A stretch of DNA of 64,000 nucleotides, from positions 930,001-994,000 of the forward strand of contig NZ_JAHVXI010000001.1 in the NCBI RefSeq assembly GCF_021032705.1, given 5' to 3'. Each line of letters opens with the position of its first letter. Within the stretch, counting starts at the first letter, position 1. This document shows positions 2,325 to 7,564 of this stretch, piece by piece. This DNA comes from Psychroserpens luteolus. GTDB lineage: Bacteria; Bacteroidota; Bacteroidia; Flavobacteriales; Flavobacteriaceae. Both the position numbers and the translations under genes were made by a program. Below the pieces are notes generated by a model. The model worked only from the letters and a program-made list of their open reading frames with translations, did no database searches and was not told the origin of the DNA.

Positions 2325-3392
2325 TTAATCTTTAATAAGCTTTTTGGTAAGTGTACCTTCAGCGTATTTGACTTCTATTAAGTACAATCCTGATGCAAAT
2401 TCTGAAATATCAAAACGTAGCCCCTCAACTATATTTGTGTCTTCCTTTATCAATTTTCCTGAAATATTATAAATAGATACTTTTTCTATTTTAGAATTGC
2501 CTGAATGCTCAATTCTAAATGCCCCATTAGTTGTAGGGTTAGGCACTAGAGCAATATTGTTTTCTGTAAAGTCTGATTCATTAACAGATAAGGTATCGCA
2601 AGATCCTGAAACACCATTAGCTGAGGTATCTCTAAAATTACCTTCTACACTCATGAGTTCAAACCCAACTAAATTACCGTCTAAGTTATTTGAGGATTTG
2701 TCGGTAACAGTAGTAATCGTTGTATTATCTGTATTTACCGTACCTTGATTTAGATCAAAGTTTAGGATCAACCCTGTTTCATCTCCAATTAACTGACAAT
2801 CCATTGATGCATTAATTTCGACCTCAGTCCTTGCATAATTCCATAAACGAACTTCATCCATCATACCTTGCAACGGATATGGGTCACCTCCTGCAGTGGC
2901 ACCTGCACCAATTCTGAGAGGGTTACTGTTAGGTGTTAAACTTCCTGAGCCGGCTTGAGTTCGAACATTTATACCATCAATGTAAAACTTTACTTCGGTA
3001 CTGCTTAAAGTTACAGCTATGTGATACCATTGATTTGTAGTTACCGAGTTCCATATATAATCGGTGAAATTACCTCCAAATCCAGAGTGATAAAAACGAA
3101 AAATCTTATTACCTCCATCTGTTAACAGCATAAGCCCATAAGACTCGTTATATCTAGATTTAGCAAAGATGCATTCCCAATCCCATCCGTCAGTTGTTCT
3201 ATTGACTTGATCAAAATTTACCCAAGCCTCAAACGTAAAGCTCGTGGTGAAATCTAATGAATTATTATCAGGGATTTCTACATAATCCCATGAAGCAACT
3301 TGCCCATCAAAGTCTAACCCTGTGGCAGTTTGTGCTGTTAAAATTTGGCATAGAAATACCGAGGTAAGTAAAAAAAGTAGTTGTTTTTTCAT
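2325..3392 (-). CDS. Secreted LamG-like (concanavalin A-like) protein with type IX secretion C-terminal domain
   Basis: The 355-residue product has a signal peptide (residues 1-20, ending LTAQ). A LamG/laminin-G-like jelly-roll domain covers about 22-200, with FTFEAWVNF, WYHIAVTLSSTEVKFYIDG and GMMDEVRLWNYART, all hallmarks of LamG-like domains in surface adhesins and carbohydrate-binding proteins. The last 75 residues are a type A T9SS sorting domain: VPNPTTNGAF, VSIYNISGKLI, LRFDISEFASGLYLIEVK and TKKLIKD. The protein is predicted to be exported by the Sec and Por/T9SS machinery to the cell surface or medium. No catalytic domain is seen. It is divergent from the ECF sigma gene, and its upstream region carries the same ECF-type promoter motif as fecR, so it is a likely regulon member. 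Confidence 0.88.
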   Translation of the reverse strand: MKKQLLFLLTSVFLCQILTAQTATGLDFDGQVASWDYVEIPDNNSLDFTTSFTFEAWVNFDQVNRTTDGWDWECIFAKSRYNESYGLMLLTDGGNKIFRFYHSGFGGNFTDYIWNSVTTNQWYHIAVTLSSTEVKFYIDGINVRTQAGSGSLTPNSNPLRIGAGATAGGDPYPLQGMMDEVRLWNYARTEVEINASMDCQLIGDETGLILNFDLNQGTVNTDNTTITTVTDKSSNNLDGNLVGFELMSVEGNFRDTSANGVSGSCDTLSVNESDFTENNIALVPNPTTNGAFRIEHSGNSKIEKVSIYNISGKLIKEDTNIVEGLRFDISEFASGLYLIEVKYAEGTLTKKLIKD

Positions 3393-3423: not shown

Positions 3424-3454
3424 CTATGACATGTAACTCTTAACCTACCCTATT
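3424..3454 (-). promoter_or_regulatory. Putative ECF-sigma promoter of the LamG/T9SS gene
   Basis: The reverse strand reads AATAGGGTA (3454-3446) and ATGTCATAG (3432-3424), with 20 bases from the first G of GGG to the G of GTC. The same words at the same distance precede fecR at 4125-4157. The -10-like part is about 30 bases before the ATG. Assignment to the neighbouring sigma factor is inferred. Confidence 0.6.
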
Positions 3455-3551
3455 TTTTTTTTTCAACTTTTTAACTTTAATGTTTAAGAATGCTAAAACT
3501 GAGTTGGTTATTATCGCTTATGACATGAGATAAGAACTTCATCTTGTTTTT

Positions 3552-3584
3552 TTGTGATATATTTTAGTGCTTTGAGTATTTTTG
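3552..3584 (+). promoter_or_regulatory. Vegetative promoter of the ECF sigma gene
   Basis: TTG at 3552-3554, 22 bases, then TAttTTTG at 3577-3584, ending 15 bases before the ATG. The sigma gene thus appears to be read by the housekeeping sigma, while fecR has the ECF-type motif. Confidence 0.6.
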
Positions 3585-3599
3585 AACTCTCATTAGAAA

Positions 3600-4124
3600 A
3601 TGATGCAAGACAAAGAACCTTCTATTTGTGAAGAAAACGTGTATAACGAATTGTTTCGGAAATATTACGAACCCGTAACAAAGTACATTTATTATAAATG
3701 CGGAAATTTGCATCAGGCCGAAGACATTGTTCAGAATGTATTTATTAAAATCTGGAAACTGTGTGCTACTATTATGTATTCGAAAGCAAAATCGTACATA
3801 TATTCTGCCTCAAAACATTCCTTTTTAAATGAAGTTGCACACGAAAAAGTGGTTTTAAAACACAAAAAGACCATTGAGGAAAGCACAGATTATGAAAGTC
3901 CAGATTTTTTAATTGAAATAGATGAATTTAGAATGAAGTTAAAAGAAGCTATAAATACTTTAAATCCAAAAGAAAAGGAAGTTTTTTTATTGAGTAGAGT
4001 AGAAGATAAAACCTATAAAGAAATTGCTGAAATAACAGGGTTAACAGTTAAGGCTATAGAACGCCGAATGAGTAAAGCCTTAAGAGAATTACGTGAGATG
4101 CTCGGCGCACATATAAAAGTATAA
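3600..4124 (+). CDS. ECF RNA polymerase sigma factor (FecI-like, sigma-70 family)
   Basis: The 174-residue protein has only sigma regions 2 and 4, as ECF factors do. Region 2 spans about 14-50 (LFRKYYEPVTKYIYY and AEDIVQNVFIKIWK, the -10 binding and core-binding part). Region 4 spans about 115-168 (LNPKEKEVFLLSRVEDKTYKE, then the helix-turn-helix EIAEITGLTVKAIERRMSKA). Members direct polymerase to a small regulon when released by a membrane anti-sigma. The FecR gene and an STN-type TonB receptor gene follow directly, the classic cell-surface signalling order. ATG-ATG at 3600 and 3603 are alternative starts. A vegetative promoter lies just upstream. Confidence 0.95.
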   Translation: MMQDKEPSICEENVYNELFRKYYEPVTKYIYYKCGNLHQAEDIVQNVFIKIWKLCATIMYSKAKSYIYSASKHSFLNEVAHEKVVLKHKKTIEESTDYESPDFLIEIDEFRMKLKEAINTLNPKEKEVFLLSRVEDKTYKEIAEITGLTVKAIERRMSKALRELREMLGAHIKV

Positions 4125-4157
4125 AATAGGGTAAAGGCTAATTTAAATGTCTTATAG
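4125..4157 (+). promoter_or_regulatory. Putative ECF-sigma promoter of fecR and the TonB receptor gene
   Basis: AATAGGGTA (4125-4133) and ATGTCTTATAG (4147-4157) begin immediately after the sigma stop codon. From the first G of GGG (4129) to the G of GTC (4149) is 20 bases, the same as in the divergent copy at 3424-3454. It lies 21 bases before the fecR ATG. Comparable GGGTA...GTC words occur in front of other Bacteroidota anti-sigma genes as I recall them, but this was not checked. Confidence 0.65.
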
Positions 4158-4177: not shown

Positions 4178-5080
4178 ATGAATACTTACGATACAGATGA
4201 TACTTTTTTAGGACGTTGGATAGCTGGAGAACTGTCTGAAGAGGAACTTATTGCTTTTAAAAACACCAAAACCTATAAGCAGTTTAAACTCATTAATATG
4301 GAGTCTCAATTATTAAGCGGTCCAGATATTGATGTTGAGAAGGCACTTCGTGATGTAAAACAAAGATTAAAGCAAAACAAATCTAAGACAAAAACAGTTC
4401 GCCTTTGGCAAACAATTAGTGTCGCTGCAATATTAATTCTAGCCTTAAGTTTCTTTTTCAATTCATCTAAAACCTACACGACTGCAATTGGCCAAACCCA
4501 AACTATTCTCTTAGAAGATGGTTCAAAAGTATATTTGAATGCAAATTCTAGTCTATCGTTAAAACGCTTTTTTTGGTCGAGTAATAAAACTGTAAACTTG
4601 AATGGTGAGGCTTATTTTGTGATTACAAAAAACAATGATTTTAAAGTAAAGACTTCAAAAGGTTTGGTAAAGGTATTAGGGACAAAATTTAATATAAAAG
4701 ACAGATCTAACTTTGAGTTGAAATGTTACGAAGGGAAGGTAGAGTTTTCTCAATTGAACGATTCATCTTCTTCGAAGATCTTGACTCAGGGAATGCAAAT
4801 AATAATTGATAACGATCGTGTTGATGATTTACATTTTAAAGAAGAATCACCTTTGTGGCAAAAAGGTATTTCTAAATTTGAGGAGCAACCGTTACATCTA
4901 GTATTAGAGGAATTAACCCAATATTTTGATATCAATTTTGATGCTCAAAACATTAACACCAACAGATTGTTTTCAGGAAGTTTCGATCATAACAATTTAG
5001 ATCTTGCATTAAAAGCGACATTGGTTCCAATGGGAATAAATTATAAAGTCGAACAACAAACTATTATCCTTTCAGAATAA
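4178..5080 (+). CDS. FecR-family anti-sigma factor
   Basis: The 300-residue protein has a cytoplasmic N-terminal part (1-75), one transmembrane helix (about 76-94, TISVAAILILALSFFF) and a periplasmic part. The FecR domain is about 100-195, with the typical LLEDGSKVYLNANSSLSL start and GEAYFVITKNNDFKVKT. A C-terminal DUF4974 domain (about 225-300) includes FEEQPLHLVLEELTQYF and SGSFDHNNLDLALKA. It should hold the upstream sigma factor inactive and receive the signal from the STN domain of the TonB receptor encoded next. The gene has its own ECF-type promoter, giving positive feedback on the anti-sigma and receptor rather than on the sigma gene. Confidence 0.95.
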   Translation: MNTYDTDDTFLGRWIAGELSEEELIAFKNTKTYKQFKLINMESQLLSGPDIDVEKALRDVKQRLKQNKSKTKTVRLWQTISVAAILILALSFFFNSSKTYTTAIGQTQTILLEDGSKVYLNANSSLSLKRFFWSSNKTVNLNGEAYFVITKNNDFKVKTSKGLVKVLGTKFNIKDRSNFELKCYEGKVEFSQLNDSSSSKILTQGMQIIIDNDRVDDLHFKEESPLWQKGISKFEEQPLHLVLEELTQYFDINFDAQNINTNRLFSGSFDHNNLDLALKATLVPMGINYKVEQQTIILSE

Positions 5081-5119: not shown

Positions 5120-7564
5120 ATGAAGCATTATTTTTTCGTTTTAGTGTTCTTTTTTTCTATGACGATTGTTGCCCAGCAAAAACAGGATTTCAAGTATTCT
5201 CAAACTCCTTTATCCCAAGTATTAAAAGAAATTCAAGAGAAAAATGACGTGTCGATTTCTTTTGCGTCCGATGTTATAGAAGACATTCTTGTTACTGTTG
5301 ATATAAGGCAGGTGACTTGGATTGAATTTTTATCAGTTTTAGAAAGTGAAACAGGTTTGATTTTTGAAAAAATATCTGATAGTCAAATTATAGTCACACC
5401 TAATTCAGATAGCAATACACTAATCCCTATTGAAGCTTTAGATGATGTGATTATTTTAGGATATGTTACAAATGGGATCGATAAAAACAAAGACGGTTCT
5501 ATAGCTGTAGATACTGAGAGACTAGGAATTTTACCAGGAATGGTAAATACTGATATTGCGCAAAGTATTCAATTAATTCCTGGGATTTCAACTTTAGACG
5601 AATCGGCAACTGGAATACAGGTTAGAGGTGGTTCTCCGGATCAAAACTTAATACTGTACGACAATATCAAACTATTTAATACGGGTTATTTTTATGGGAT
5701 GTTTTCGTTATTTAATCCTTTTGCCACTCAAAAAGCAACTATTTATAGATCTGGAACAAGCGCTAGCTATGGCGATCGTATTTCTGGGATTATAGATATA
5801 TCTAGTGGTCATAAAATTTATGAAAACACCAAAGGAGGACTTGAAGTCGATGGTCTATCTATTAATGGTTATTTAAAAACCGCGTTGTCAAGTAAGATAG
5901 GATTATATCTGTTTGCCAGACGATCTTATTCAGATTTATTAGAAACACCTACATATACTAGTTATGTCGATAAAATTTTCACAAATTTTGGAATTGCTAG
6001 AGATGTTAATGGGACTATTTTAGAATTAGAAACTGATGATGATTTTAGCCCAGAAACTAGTAATAATACATTTAATTTTGCCGACGTTAGCACCAAGTTA
6101 ATTATAAAACCAAATGATAAGAATGATATTGAATTTAGTGCACTATATACTAGAAACCGTTTAGATTTTGATTTTAAAGGAGGAGATGAGGTGATTGTAG
6201 ACTCGCTAATTACTCAAAATAAAGGACTAAGTTTTAATTGGAAACATAACACTAGTGAAAAACAGCAAGAGGAACTTACAGTTTATTTTTCTGAGTATAA
6301 TTCTTACTATCAGAACGATGAGATAAAAGATGAAACAGGAGACGGTATTTTAGATCTTAGCGAAGTCAATATTAGAGAAAATAATATTACGGATATTGGC
6401 GTCAATTTTACGTCTGTTACTCAAATTGCAGCGTCTCAAAAGCTAACACTAGGCTATCAGTTGTCATATACCGATTTGGATGTCACCATTAGCAAAGAAG
6501 AACCGGTTGAATCTGAAAAAGAAGTCCTAGTACAAGATGATAATAATCTAAAAAATGCATTATTTGGAGAATATACTATAGATCTAAACAATAAGGGTTT
6601 AATTAATGCTGGTGTACGTTTTTCACATTATAGCAGCTTGAATGAATTTTTAATTGAGCCTCGCATTAACTTTGAATATGCTTTAAGTAAACGTCTAAGA
6701 TCAAAAATTGCAATTGAAAGAAGAAACCAACCTATTTCGCAATTAATAGAATTCAACCATACCGAATTACGCTTAGAGAACAACTTATGGCGCTTGTCGG
6801 ATGATGAACAATATCCATTACTCTCGAGTAATCAAATTTCAGGAGGGTTGTTATATTCCCATAAAAGCTTAAATATCGATATTGATTTTTATTACAAAGA
6901 ATTAAAAGGGCTAACGACGTTTACAAATGGCTTTAGTAACCCTTTAGAAAATTTAGAACAAGGTGAAAGTACAATAAAGGGTATTGATGTTTTATTAAAA
7001 TATAAACGAAACAATTATAAAGTTTGGCTAGGATATACCTTTAATGATATAACTTTTCAGTTTCCAAATTTAGAAGACACACCATCTAAATTTAACGGTA
7101 ATAATGACATTACACATCAATTTAGAATTTCCAACTCATTTAAATTAAACAATTGGCAATTTGCTTTAGGATGGCAAATTAGAACTGGAAAGCCAATTAC
7201 ACCAGTAAATAGTTACACTATAGAAATTGATGCTGATGGTGAAAACGCTGGAGTTGTAAATTTTGGAGCTATAAATAGTGATAGATTACCGAGTTTTCAT
7301 CGATTAGATGCTTCAGTCTTATATGATTTCAAGATTAAAAAAACAGATGCGCAATTAGGGATATCATTCTTAAATATTTACAATAGAATAAAACCATTAA
7401 ATTTAATTTACAAGGCCGAACGTAAACCTCTAGATGATGGTGGTATTGCTGTTGAAGGTACGACTGGTGCAACTCCTGAAGAACGAGAAATTATATTAGA
7501 ACAGGTGATTCAACGATTTTCATTAGGGTTTACACCTAATATTTCATTTAAGTTATTCTTTTAA
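5120..7564 (+). CDS. TonB-dependent outer-membrane receptor with N-terminal STN signalling domain
   Basis: The 814-residue product has a signal peptide (1-19, ending VAQQ). An STN domain (about 24-92; FKYSQTPLSQVLKEIQEKND, then VTWIEFLSVLES and IVTPN) is the part that contacts FecR. A plug domain (about 130-220) carries SIQLIPGI, IQVRGGSPDQNLILYD and YGDRISGIIDIS, followed by a 22-strand-type barrel ending in phenylalanine. The carboxypeptidase-like domain usual in SusC proteins is absent, and no susD follows. The transporter therefore does not look like a polysaccharide SusCD system. A siderophore, haem, peptide or small-ligand substrate is more plausible, and the substrate is unknown. The stop lies 4 bases from that of a convergent gene. 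Confidence 0.93.
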   Translation: MKHYFFVLVFFFSMTIVAQQKQDFKYSQTPLSQVLKEIQEKNDVSISFASDVIEDILVTVDIRQVTWIEFLSVLESETGLIFEKISDSQIIVTPNSDSNTLIPIEALDDVIILGYVTNGIDKNKDGSIAVDTERLGILPGMVNTDIAQSIQLIPGISTLDESATGIQVRGGSPDQNLILYDNIKLFNTGYFYGMFSLFNPFATQKATIYRSGTSASYGDRISGIIDISSGHKIYENTKGGLEVDGLSINGYLKTALSSKIGLYLFARRSYSDLLETPTYTSYVDKIFTNFGIARDVNGTILELETDDDFSPETSNNTFNFADVSTKLIIKPNDKNDIEFSALYTRNRLDFDFKGGDEVIVDSLITQNKGLSFNWKHNTSEKQQEELTVYFSEYNSYYQNDEIKDETGDGILDLSEVNIRENNITDIGVNFTSVTQIAASQKLTLGYQLSYTDLDVTISKEEPVESEKEVLVQDDNNLKNALFGEYTIDLNNKGLINAGVRFSHYSSLNEFLIEPRINFEYALSKRLRSKIAIERRNQPISQLIEFNHTELRLENNLWRLSDDEQYPLLSSNQISGGLLYSHKSLNIDIDFYYKELKGLTTFTNGFSNPLENLEQGESTIKGIDVLLKYKRNNYKVWLGYTFNDITFQFPNLEDTPSKFNGNNDITHQFRISNSFKLNNWQFALGWQIRTGKPITPVNSYTIEIDADGENAGVVNFGAINSDRLPSFHRLDASVLYDFKIKKTDAQLGISFLNIYNRIKPLNLIYKAERKPLDDGGIAVEGTTGATPEEREIILEQVIQRFSLGFTPNISFKLFF

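Follow-up and report, generated by a model that had tools for sequence, protein, structure and literature searches.

In the FecIRA system, occupancy of the receptor is relayed through the receptor's signalling domain to FecR and from there to FecI. The E. coli version, as set out in the published account (PMC9249621), combines a FecI-type ECF sigma factor, FecR, and a TonB receptor carrying an N-terminal signalling domain, with a sigma gene that is vegetatively transcribed and not autoregulated, and an ECF promoter before the receptor gene. The locus we investigated appears to share these properties. However, in that account fecI and fecR are cotranscribed under sigma70, with the ECF promoter before fecA (PMC9249621), whereas here the putative ECF promoter is located between fecI and fecR, so that fecR belongs to the driven unit, and an extra candidate ECF promoter precedes a divergent gene that does not encode a receptor. 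Bacteroides polysaccharide utilization loci under ECF/anti-sigma control also have an ECF/anti-sigma pair beside a TonB receptor and co-regulated surface proteins, according to PMC12596196. We ruled out this type of locus because there is no SusD near the receptor: the source genome has six SusD matches, and the nearest on the contig of the locus (C11:1144829) is about 210 kb away. Pfam and NCBIfam recognized no glycan enzyme among the four cassette proteins. For the SM6 ECF promoters of F. psychrophilum, the targets include T9SS machinery genes (PMC9723704), whereas our locus pairs a substrate-type protein with a receptor. The locus and its relatives are best described as an ECF regulon for surface signalling, in which a redox arm is conserved and the surface arms can be exchanged.

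The window (the whole 64,000-nucleotide stretch of Psychroserpens luteolus DNA that was analysed) encodes the four proteins in close succession, and the closest named matches to the locus are uncultured Psychroserpens isolates (loci L038 and L039). The sigma factor (3600..4124, plus strand, 174 aa) has both Sigma70_r2 and Sigma70_r4_2 above cut-off and matches the Bacteroidetes sigma family TIGR02985 with E=4.8e-33, under that profile's own cut-off (114.7 of 126.4 bits). It is followed on the same strand by a fecR-type anti-sigma factor gene (4178..5080, 300 aa, Pfam FecR and FecR_C domains) and by a gene for a TonB-dependent receptor/transducer (5120..7564, 814 aa). In the receptor the Plug domain is above cut-off, FecR_C is above cut-off at aa 24-92 and STN is below cut-off; together with the structure model, these matches mark an N-terminal signalling domain. 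Sigma regions 2 and 4, a FecR/FecR_C anti-sigma factor, and a signalling domain on the receptor are what characterizes a FecI/FecR/TonB-transducer cassette, and a predicted cognate ECF promoter stands before the receptor unit. The receptor model is moderate (mean pLDDT 58.5), with a folded N-terminal domain at about 80, barrel strands, and a poor plug region. FpvA, FoxA, and FecA are the first three among the PDB matches listed, and query TM-scores range from 0.37 to 0.48 in the 50 PDB matches listed; given these scores and a moderate model, we read no ligand class from it. A PDB sequence search with the receptor gave no match.

The divergent gene (2325..3392, minus strand, 355 aa) was assigned with Pfam and NCBIfam profiles. 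Its product has a Laminin_G_3 domain at aa 36-193 (PF13385, E=1.9e-30) and a T9SS type A sorting tail at aa 284-354 (PF18962, E=3.1e-12; TIGR04183 above cut-off). The N-terminus was judged by eye to be a putative signal peptide, and SprA, the component of the T9SS machinery that was searched for, is above cut-off in the source genome. This combination of signal peptide, sorting domain, and SprA identifies the LamG protein as a predicted T9SS substrate. Modelling of its structure gave a poor result (mean pLDDT 39.6 from 3 sequences), which was left out of the analysis.

Two matching sites flank fecI. On the fecR side, AATAGGGTA-N15-GTCTTA occupies 4125..4154 on the plus strand (full site AATAGGGTAAAGGCTAATTTAAATGTCTTA); its first base directly follows the fecI stop codon, and the motif starts 53 nt before the fecR ATG. 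On the LamG side, AATAGGGTA-N15-GTCATA occupies 3425..3454 on the minus strand (full site, 3454-3425, AATAGGGTAGGTTAAGAGTTACATGTCATA), with the motif start 62 nt ahead of the LamG ATG; in L038 and L039 the same two boxes precede the LamG orthologues. The original prediction of two matching sites with 20 bases from GGG to GTC in each is thus borne out by the sequence. The combined pattern AATAGGGTR-N15-GTCWTA, with 15 specified letters at fixed spacing, has exactly two matches in the 3.84 Mb genome, both of them flanking fecI; from the background rate, and with position left out, two exact sites would arise in one genome by chance with a probability of about 1.5e-4 to 2.6e-4. The looser pattern GGGTA-N14..18-GTCWTA matches twice in the window against 0.20 expected, a count reached in one of 100 shuffles, but in the whole genome it has four matches and the reversed control 12. 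Taken alone, this pattern is therefore weak, and the argument depends on the exact sites together with their conservation. With up to two mismatches, the full pattern has 28 matches in the genome against 37 for a control that was not divided by mismatch number, which confines the signal to the exact sites; for the same reason we dropped the idea of a wider regulon in this genome. Two of these 28 near-matches are the sites of paralogous FecI loci (C11:779550 and C55:137335).

Conservation was assessed in 13 orthologous loci that were gathered by similarity of the FecR protein, with the motif unused, and all 13 were analysed: the window, three from the 22 other genomes of the genus, eight from the 396 other sampled genomes of the family, and one named Kordia record (two other loci from the named-record search come from the same genomes as two of the genus set). 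Family genomes were taken at FecR E<=1e-70; in the genus, the next best FecR matches drop to 38% identity. Two intervals were searched in each locus, the gap that separates fecI from fecR and the stretch on the divergent side of fecI, allowing up to three box mismatches and spacers of 10 to 20. The original prediction made conservation in orthologous loci its touchstone, and AATAGGGTR or a one-letter relative was found at both positions in all 13 loci, with AATAGGGT unchanged and free of mismatches in 26 of 26 promoters. The distance from GGG to GT is constant as well, GT being at spacer 15 in all 26; the divergent copy of L054 was scored at spacer 17, yet likewise has GTC at 15. Of the 13 fecR promoters 12 retain GTC, and of the 13 divergent ones 11 do; the -10 box reads GTATTA instead in both promoters of L049 (genome G014) and in the divergent thioredoxin promoter of L039 (genome G019). 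Mean pairwise identity is 0.99 and 0.97 for the boxes against 0.58 and 0.52 for the spacers.

The loose pattern, which is no commoner in the genome than its reversed control, could be used to argue that the twin sites match by chance or stem from copied DNA and do not act as promoters. However, boxes are conserved and spacers diverged in 13 genomes of at least eight genera, and the sites are placed before start codons; a chance match is ruled out by this conservation, and the explanation as a whole is exceedingly improbable. When 395 genomes of the order were searched for this FecI, only the window's own was recovered; only eight candidates per genome were scored, so some may have been missed.

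The sigma gene appears to have a promoter of a different kind. In F. psychrophilum the -7 box of sigma-A promoters has been reported as TAnnTTTG (PMC9723704). A match to this consensus, TATTTTTG (3577..3584, plus strand), lies 23 nt before the fecI ATG, which fits the earlier claim of a vegetative promoter for the sigma gene. Exact TAnnTTTG is found 23-30 nt upstream of fecI in 10 of the 13 loci; L057 has one at 44 nt, and L052 and L053 have none within 75 nt of fecI.

The exact motif is also concentrated in genomes with the FecR orthologue. The family sample comprises 397 genomes, part of a larger family, of which nine have a FecR orthologue and 388 do not. Exact sites occur in 16 of the 397: in seven of the nine genomes with the orthologue (19 sites) and in nine of the 388 without (9 sites; Fisher p=1.4e-9). 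The reversed control pattern has seven sites in the 397 genomes (counted by eye from the table). Two of the genomes with a FecR orthologue (G169 and G404), and also G014, have only sites with one mismatch. Placement points in the same direction as specificity: of the 30 exact sites in the 13 genomes, 22 are followed at a distance of 40-80 nt by the ATG of an ORF of 100 aa or longer. The same holds for 7.6% of positions drawn at random (1230 of 16200) and for none of the nine sites in genomes without the orthologue. With the twin promoters (13 exact sites) set aside, nine of the remaining 17 sites have such a gene (p=1.2e-6). Eight of the 30 sites have no gene start at 40-80 nt; in one of these, L052 at 13749, the end of the locus cuts the gene, which is present in L125.

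Comparison with paralogues suggests which sigma factor reads these sites. FecI was sought in 45 loci, and 44 gave one (L013 gave none), 13 of the clade and 31 paralogues. The box before fecR is AATAGGGT in 13 of 13 clade loci, whereas an exact match is found in none of the 31 paralogues, the nearest (L022) being one letter off. Typical paralogue boxes are AGTAGGGTAAAACA...CGGTTTTA, (A/G)GTAGGGTTTT...GTTGTCTTA, or GGTAGGAATTTT...CTGTTATA, and one paralogous clade has AGTAGGGT...GTCTTA; L017, L023, and L036 have no clear box before fecR. The region 4 stretch TGLTVKAIERRMSKAL, which we take to be the helix that reads the -35 box, is nearly invariant in the FecI clade and different in the four paralogues aligned. 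The class of the fecR box tracks the FecI clade, and the data agree with a model in which each sigma acts on the fecR promoter of its own locus. AATAGGGTR-N15-GTCWTA is therefore well supported, as far as comparison of sequences goes, as the putative cognate ECF promoter of this FecI clade, and the paralogues suggest that the pair of boxes is particular to each FecI clade; if so, flavobacterial ECF regulons might be readable from sequence. For one clade in the Flavobacteriaceae this provides a testable promoter code.

Reading of the sites by a paralogous ECF sigma, by another regulator, or by several sigmas is improbable. Several paralogous loci do have AGTAGGGT or GGTAGGGT with GTCTTA, one to three letters from the motif, and in L141 (genome G131, without an orthologue at the E cut-off) a paralogous FecI with 41% identity has an exact site about 40 nt upstream, at 6755-6784, that points away from it. 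The specificity of the motif is thus not absolute. On the side that the L141 site would drive, there is no ORF of at least 60 aa in the next 220 nt, and the fecR box of this paralogous FecI is GGTAGGGT...GTCTAA. Against cross-reading stand the tracking of the clade by the fecR box and the frequency of the exact motif outside the clade, which is that of the reversed control. In the source genome, the paralogous locus L059 (C55) has twin, slightly different sites of its own, with GGGT at 5747 (minus) and 6340 (plus), one before fecR and the other before a divergent gene for a 491-aa lipoprotein-like protein, for which Pfam gave no match.

What lies beyond the divergent promoter differs between loci. 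In 10 of the 13 the divergent genes encode a thioredoxin (PF13899), ApbE, DUF4266, and DUF3570 (Pfam run on one example of each). The DUF3570 proteins of all 10 loci contain one or two [S/T]GA[S/T] motifs each, and the DUF4266 sequences printed have a CXC end. In L053 the first divergent gene is matrixin-like and has an exact site, and the thioredoxin gene behind it has a site with one mismatch. The linked operon is absent, among the 13 loci, from the window, L038, and L049; the divergent gene encodes the LamG protein in the window and L038 and a PAP2 protein in L049. LamG orthologues were found in three genomes only, among the 23 genomes of the genus and the 13 loci, and thus in three of the 13 loci; within the genus, three of the four genomes with the cassette have one compared with none of the 19 without it (p=0.002). 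LamG as the general partner is ruled out by this count. The original prediction of one sigma with promoters before both fecR-receptor and an exported LamG gene therefore stands with regard to the conserved twin sites, but its LamG arm was drawn too narrowly, as the ApbE/DUF3570 operon takes this position in 10 of 13 loci.

L039 contains both arms, in the order LamG, DUF3570, DUF4266, ApbE, thioredoxin, fecI, with one site before LamG, 3.5 kb from fecI, and another before the thioredoxin gene. In the simplest history, LamG would originally have stood on the far side of the redox operon, under a promoter of its own, and the window's line would later have lost the operon. An unlinked set of the four genes is present on C22 of the source genome (L149:7078-10049), with no exact site near it; the 15 kb analysed there contain no FecI, FecR, or receptor of the cassette type. 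This copy faces a TerC-like gene (named by eye). Exact motifs are also found before a thioredoxin fragment (L122:954, genome G348) and before a DUF3570 remnant (L135:9066, genome G412); these are apparently decayed second copies of the redox arm.

The same four families make up the DsbD-type clusters of a survey of extracytosolic ApbE flavinylation (eLife 2021), which counts 285 DsbD clusters, 227 of them with DUF3570, 221 with DUF4266, and 183 with a thioredoxin-like protein, as well as 316 more clusters without DsbD, and calls function uncertain (PMC8238504). The text of the survey mentions neither sigma nor FecR, and the clusters that it links to TonB are of a different class, PepSY-like, 231 of which have what it terms a TonB receptor (PMC8238504). 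In the relatives of our locus, position and promoter tie the flavinylation operon to an ECF/TonB-transducer unit. The DUF3570 flavinylation system is thereby connected to a receptor that could help find its substrate, and the conserved divergent promoter suggests that a sigma of this FecI clade commands more than its own receptor.

Exact or one-mismatch sites are also found upstream of large exported proteins in several genomes: a HYR protein (L055), a 1630-aa protein containing a Laminin_G_3 domain (L123, genome G297), M60-like peptidase and HYR proteins of Kordia (L132), YadA/C1q and S74 fibre-like proteins (L125 and L128), a sortilin-like protein (L129), and a T9SS-tailed protein (L122).

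We consider it highly likely that the locus is a surface-signalling unit in which a vegetatively made sigma, released through FecR, reads the promoter of fecR and the receptor together with the divergent promoter of an envelope or surface partner. A ligand would act through the receptor on FecR, and release from FecR would let the sigma start transcription at AATAGGGTR-N15-GTCWTA. A single ECF promoter would drive fecR and the receptor; the anti-sigma factor would be raised together with the receptor and should therefore damp the response, a delayed negative feedback. The divergent promoter would drive the partner, which in relatives is usually the thioredoxin-ApbE-DUF4266-DUF3570 operon; in the group of Psychroserpens to which the window belongs, this place would be taken by a LamG protein exported through the T9SS, with the linked redox operon gone. 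Judging from the matching promoters, the sigma very probably turns on both the receptor and the LamG protein. The divergent -35 box starts 53-58 nt upstream of fecI in 11 of the 13 loci, where the -33 element of the vegetative fecI promoter is expected, so that polymerase active at the divergent promoter might block fecI. In the window and L038 the distances are 146 and 176 nt, and this brake would be gone.

As to what the partners are for, a reading with close to an even chance is that the promoters are real ECF promoters, but that LamG and the other surface proteins reflect general surface remodelling and not ligand handling, the sigma being a switch for the state of the envelope. This would agree with the diversity of partners (LamG, matrixin-like, the latter below the Pfam cut-off, HYR, M60-like, YadA/C1q, S74, sortilin-like, and PAP2 phosphatase) and with the lack of a LamG orthologue in 10 of 13 loci. 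However, the constancy of the redox operon in 10 of 13 loci speaks for one specific core substrate or process. We tentatively suggest, as possible rather than probable, that this receptor/ECF regulon commands a flavinylation electron-transfer system and large surface proteins, that the receptor reports a surface-bound ligand which is reduced or otherwise redox-processed in the envelope, and that in the window's lineage, after loss of the linked redox arm, a LamG capture protein is the only detected second arm. A more specific idea, by analogy to the lipoproteins that accompany SusC- or BtuB-type receptors, is that LamG captures the receptor's ligand at the surface, which would give the two proteins a common purpose. 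Its lectin-type domain is exported, Laminin_G_3 recurs in a second regulon member (L123), and in the genus the orthologue is found only together with the cassette; nevertheless, we regard this role as unlikely, as no match to SusD falls within some 200 kb of the locus and most relatives have no LamG orthologue there.

An EQLP-type tail with D-x-N-x-DG stretches forms the C-terminus of five regulon proteins, three of them in L132 and one each in L053 and L123. No family covers this tail in Pfam, searched with all five, or in NCBIfam, searched with four of the five, and it may be an undescribed C-terminal domain. Upstream of the cassette, 18 nt of the 3' end of a tRNA-Ala gene (1448-1522) are repeated exactly, at 1506-1523 and 1660-1677, with the second copy downstream and 154 bases from the first, start to start; this could be a remnant of integration at the tRNA.
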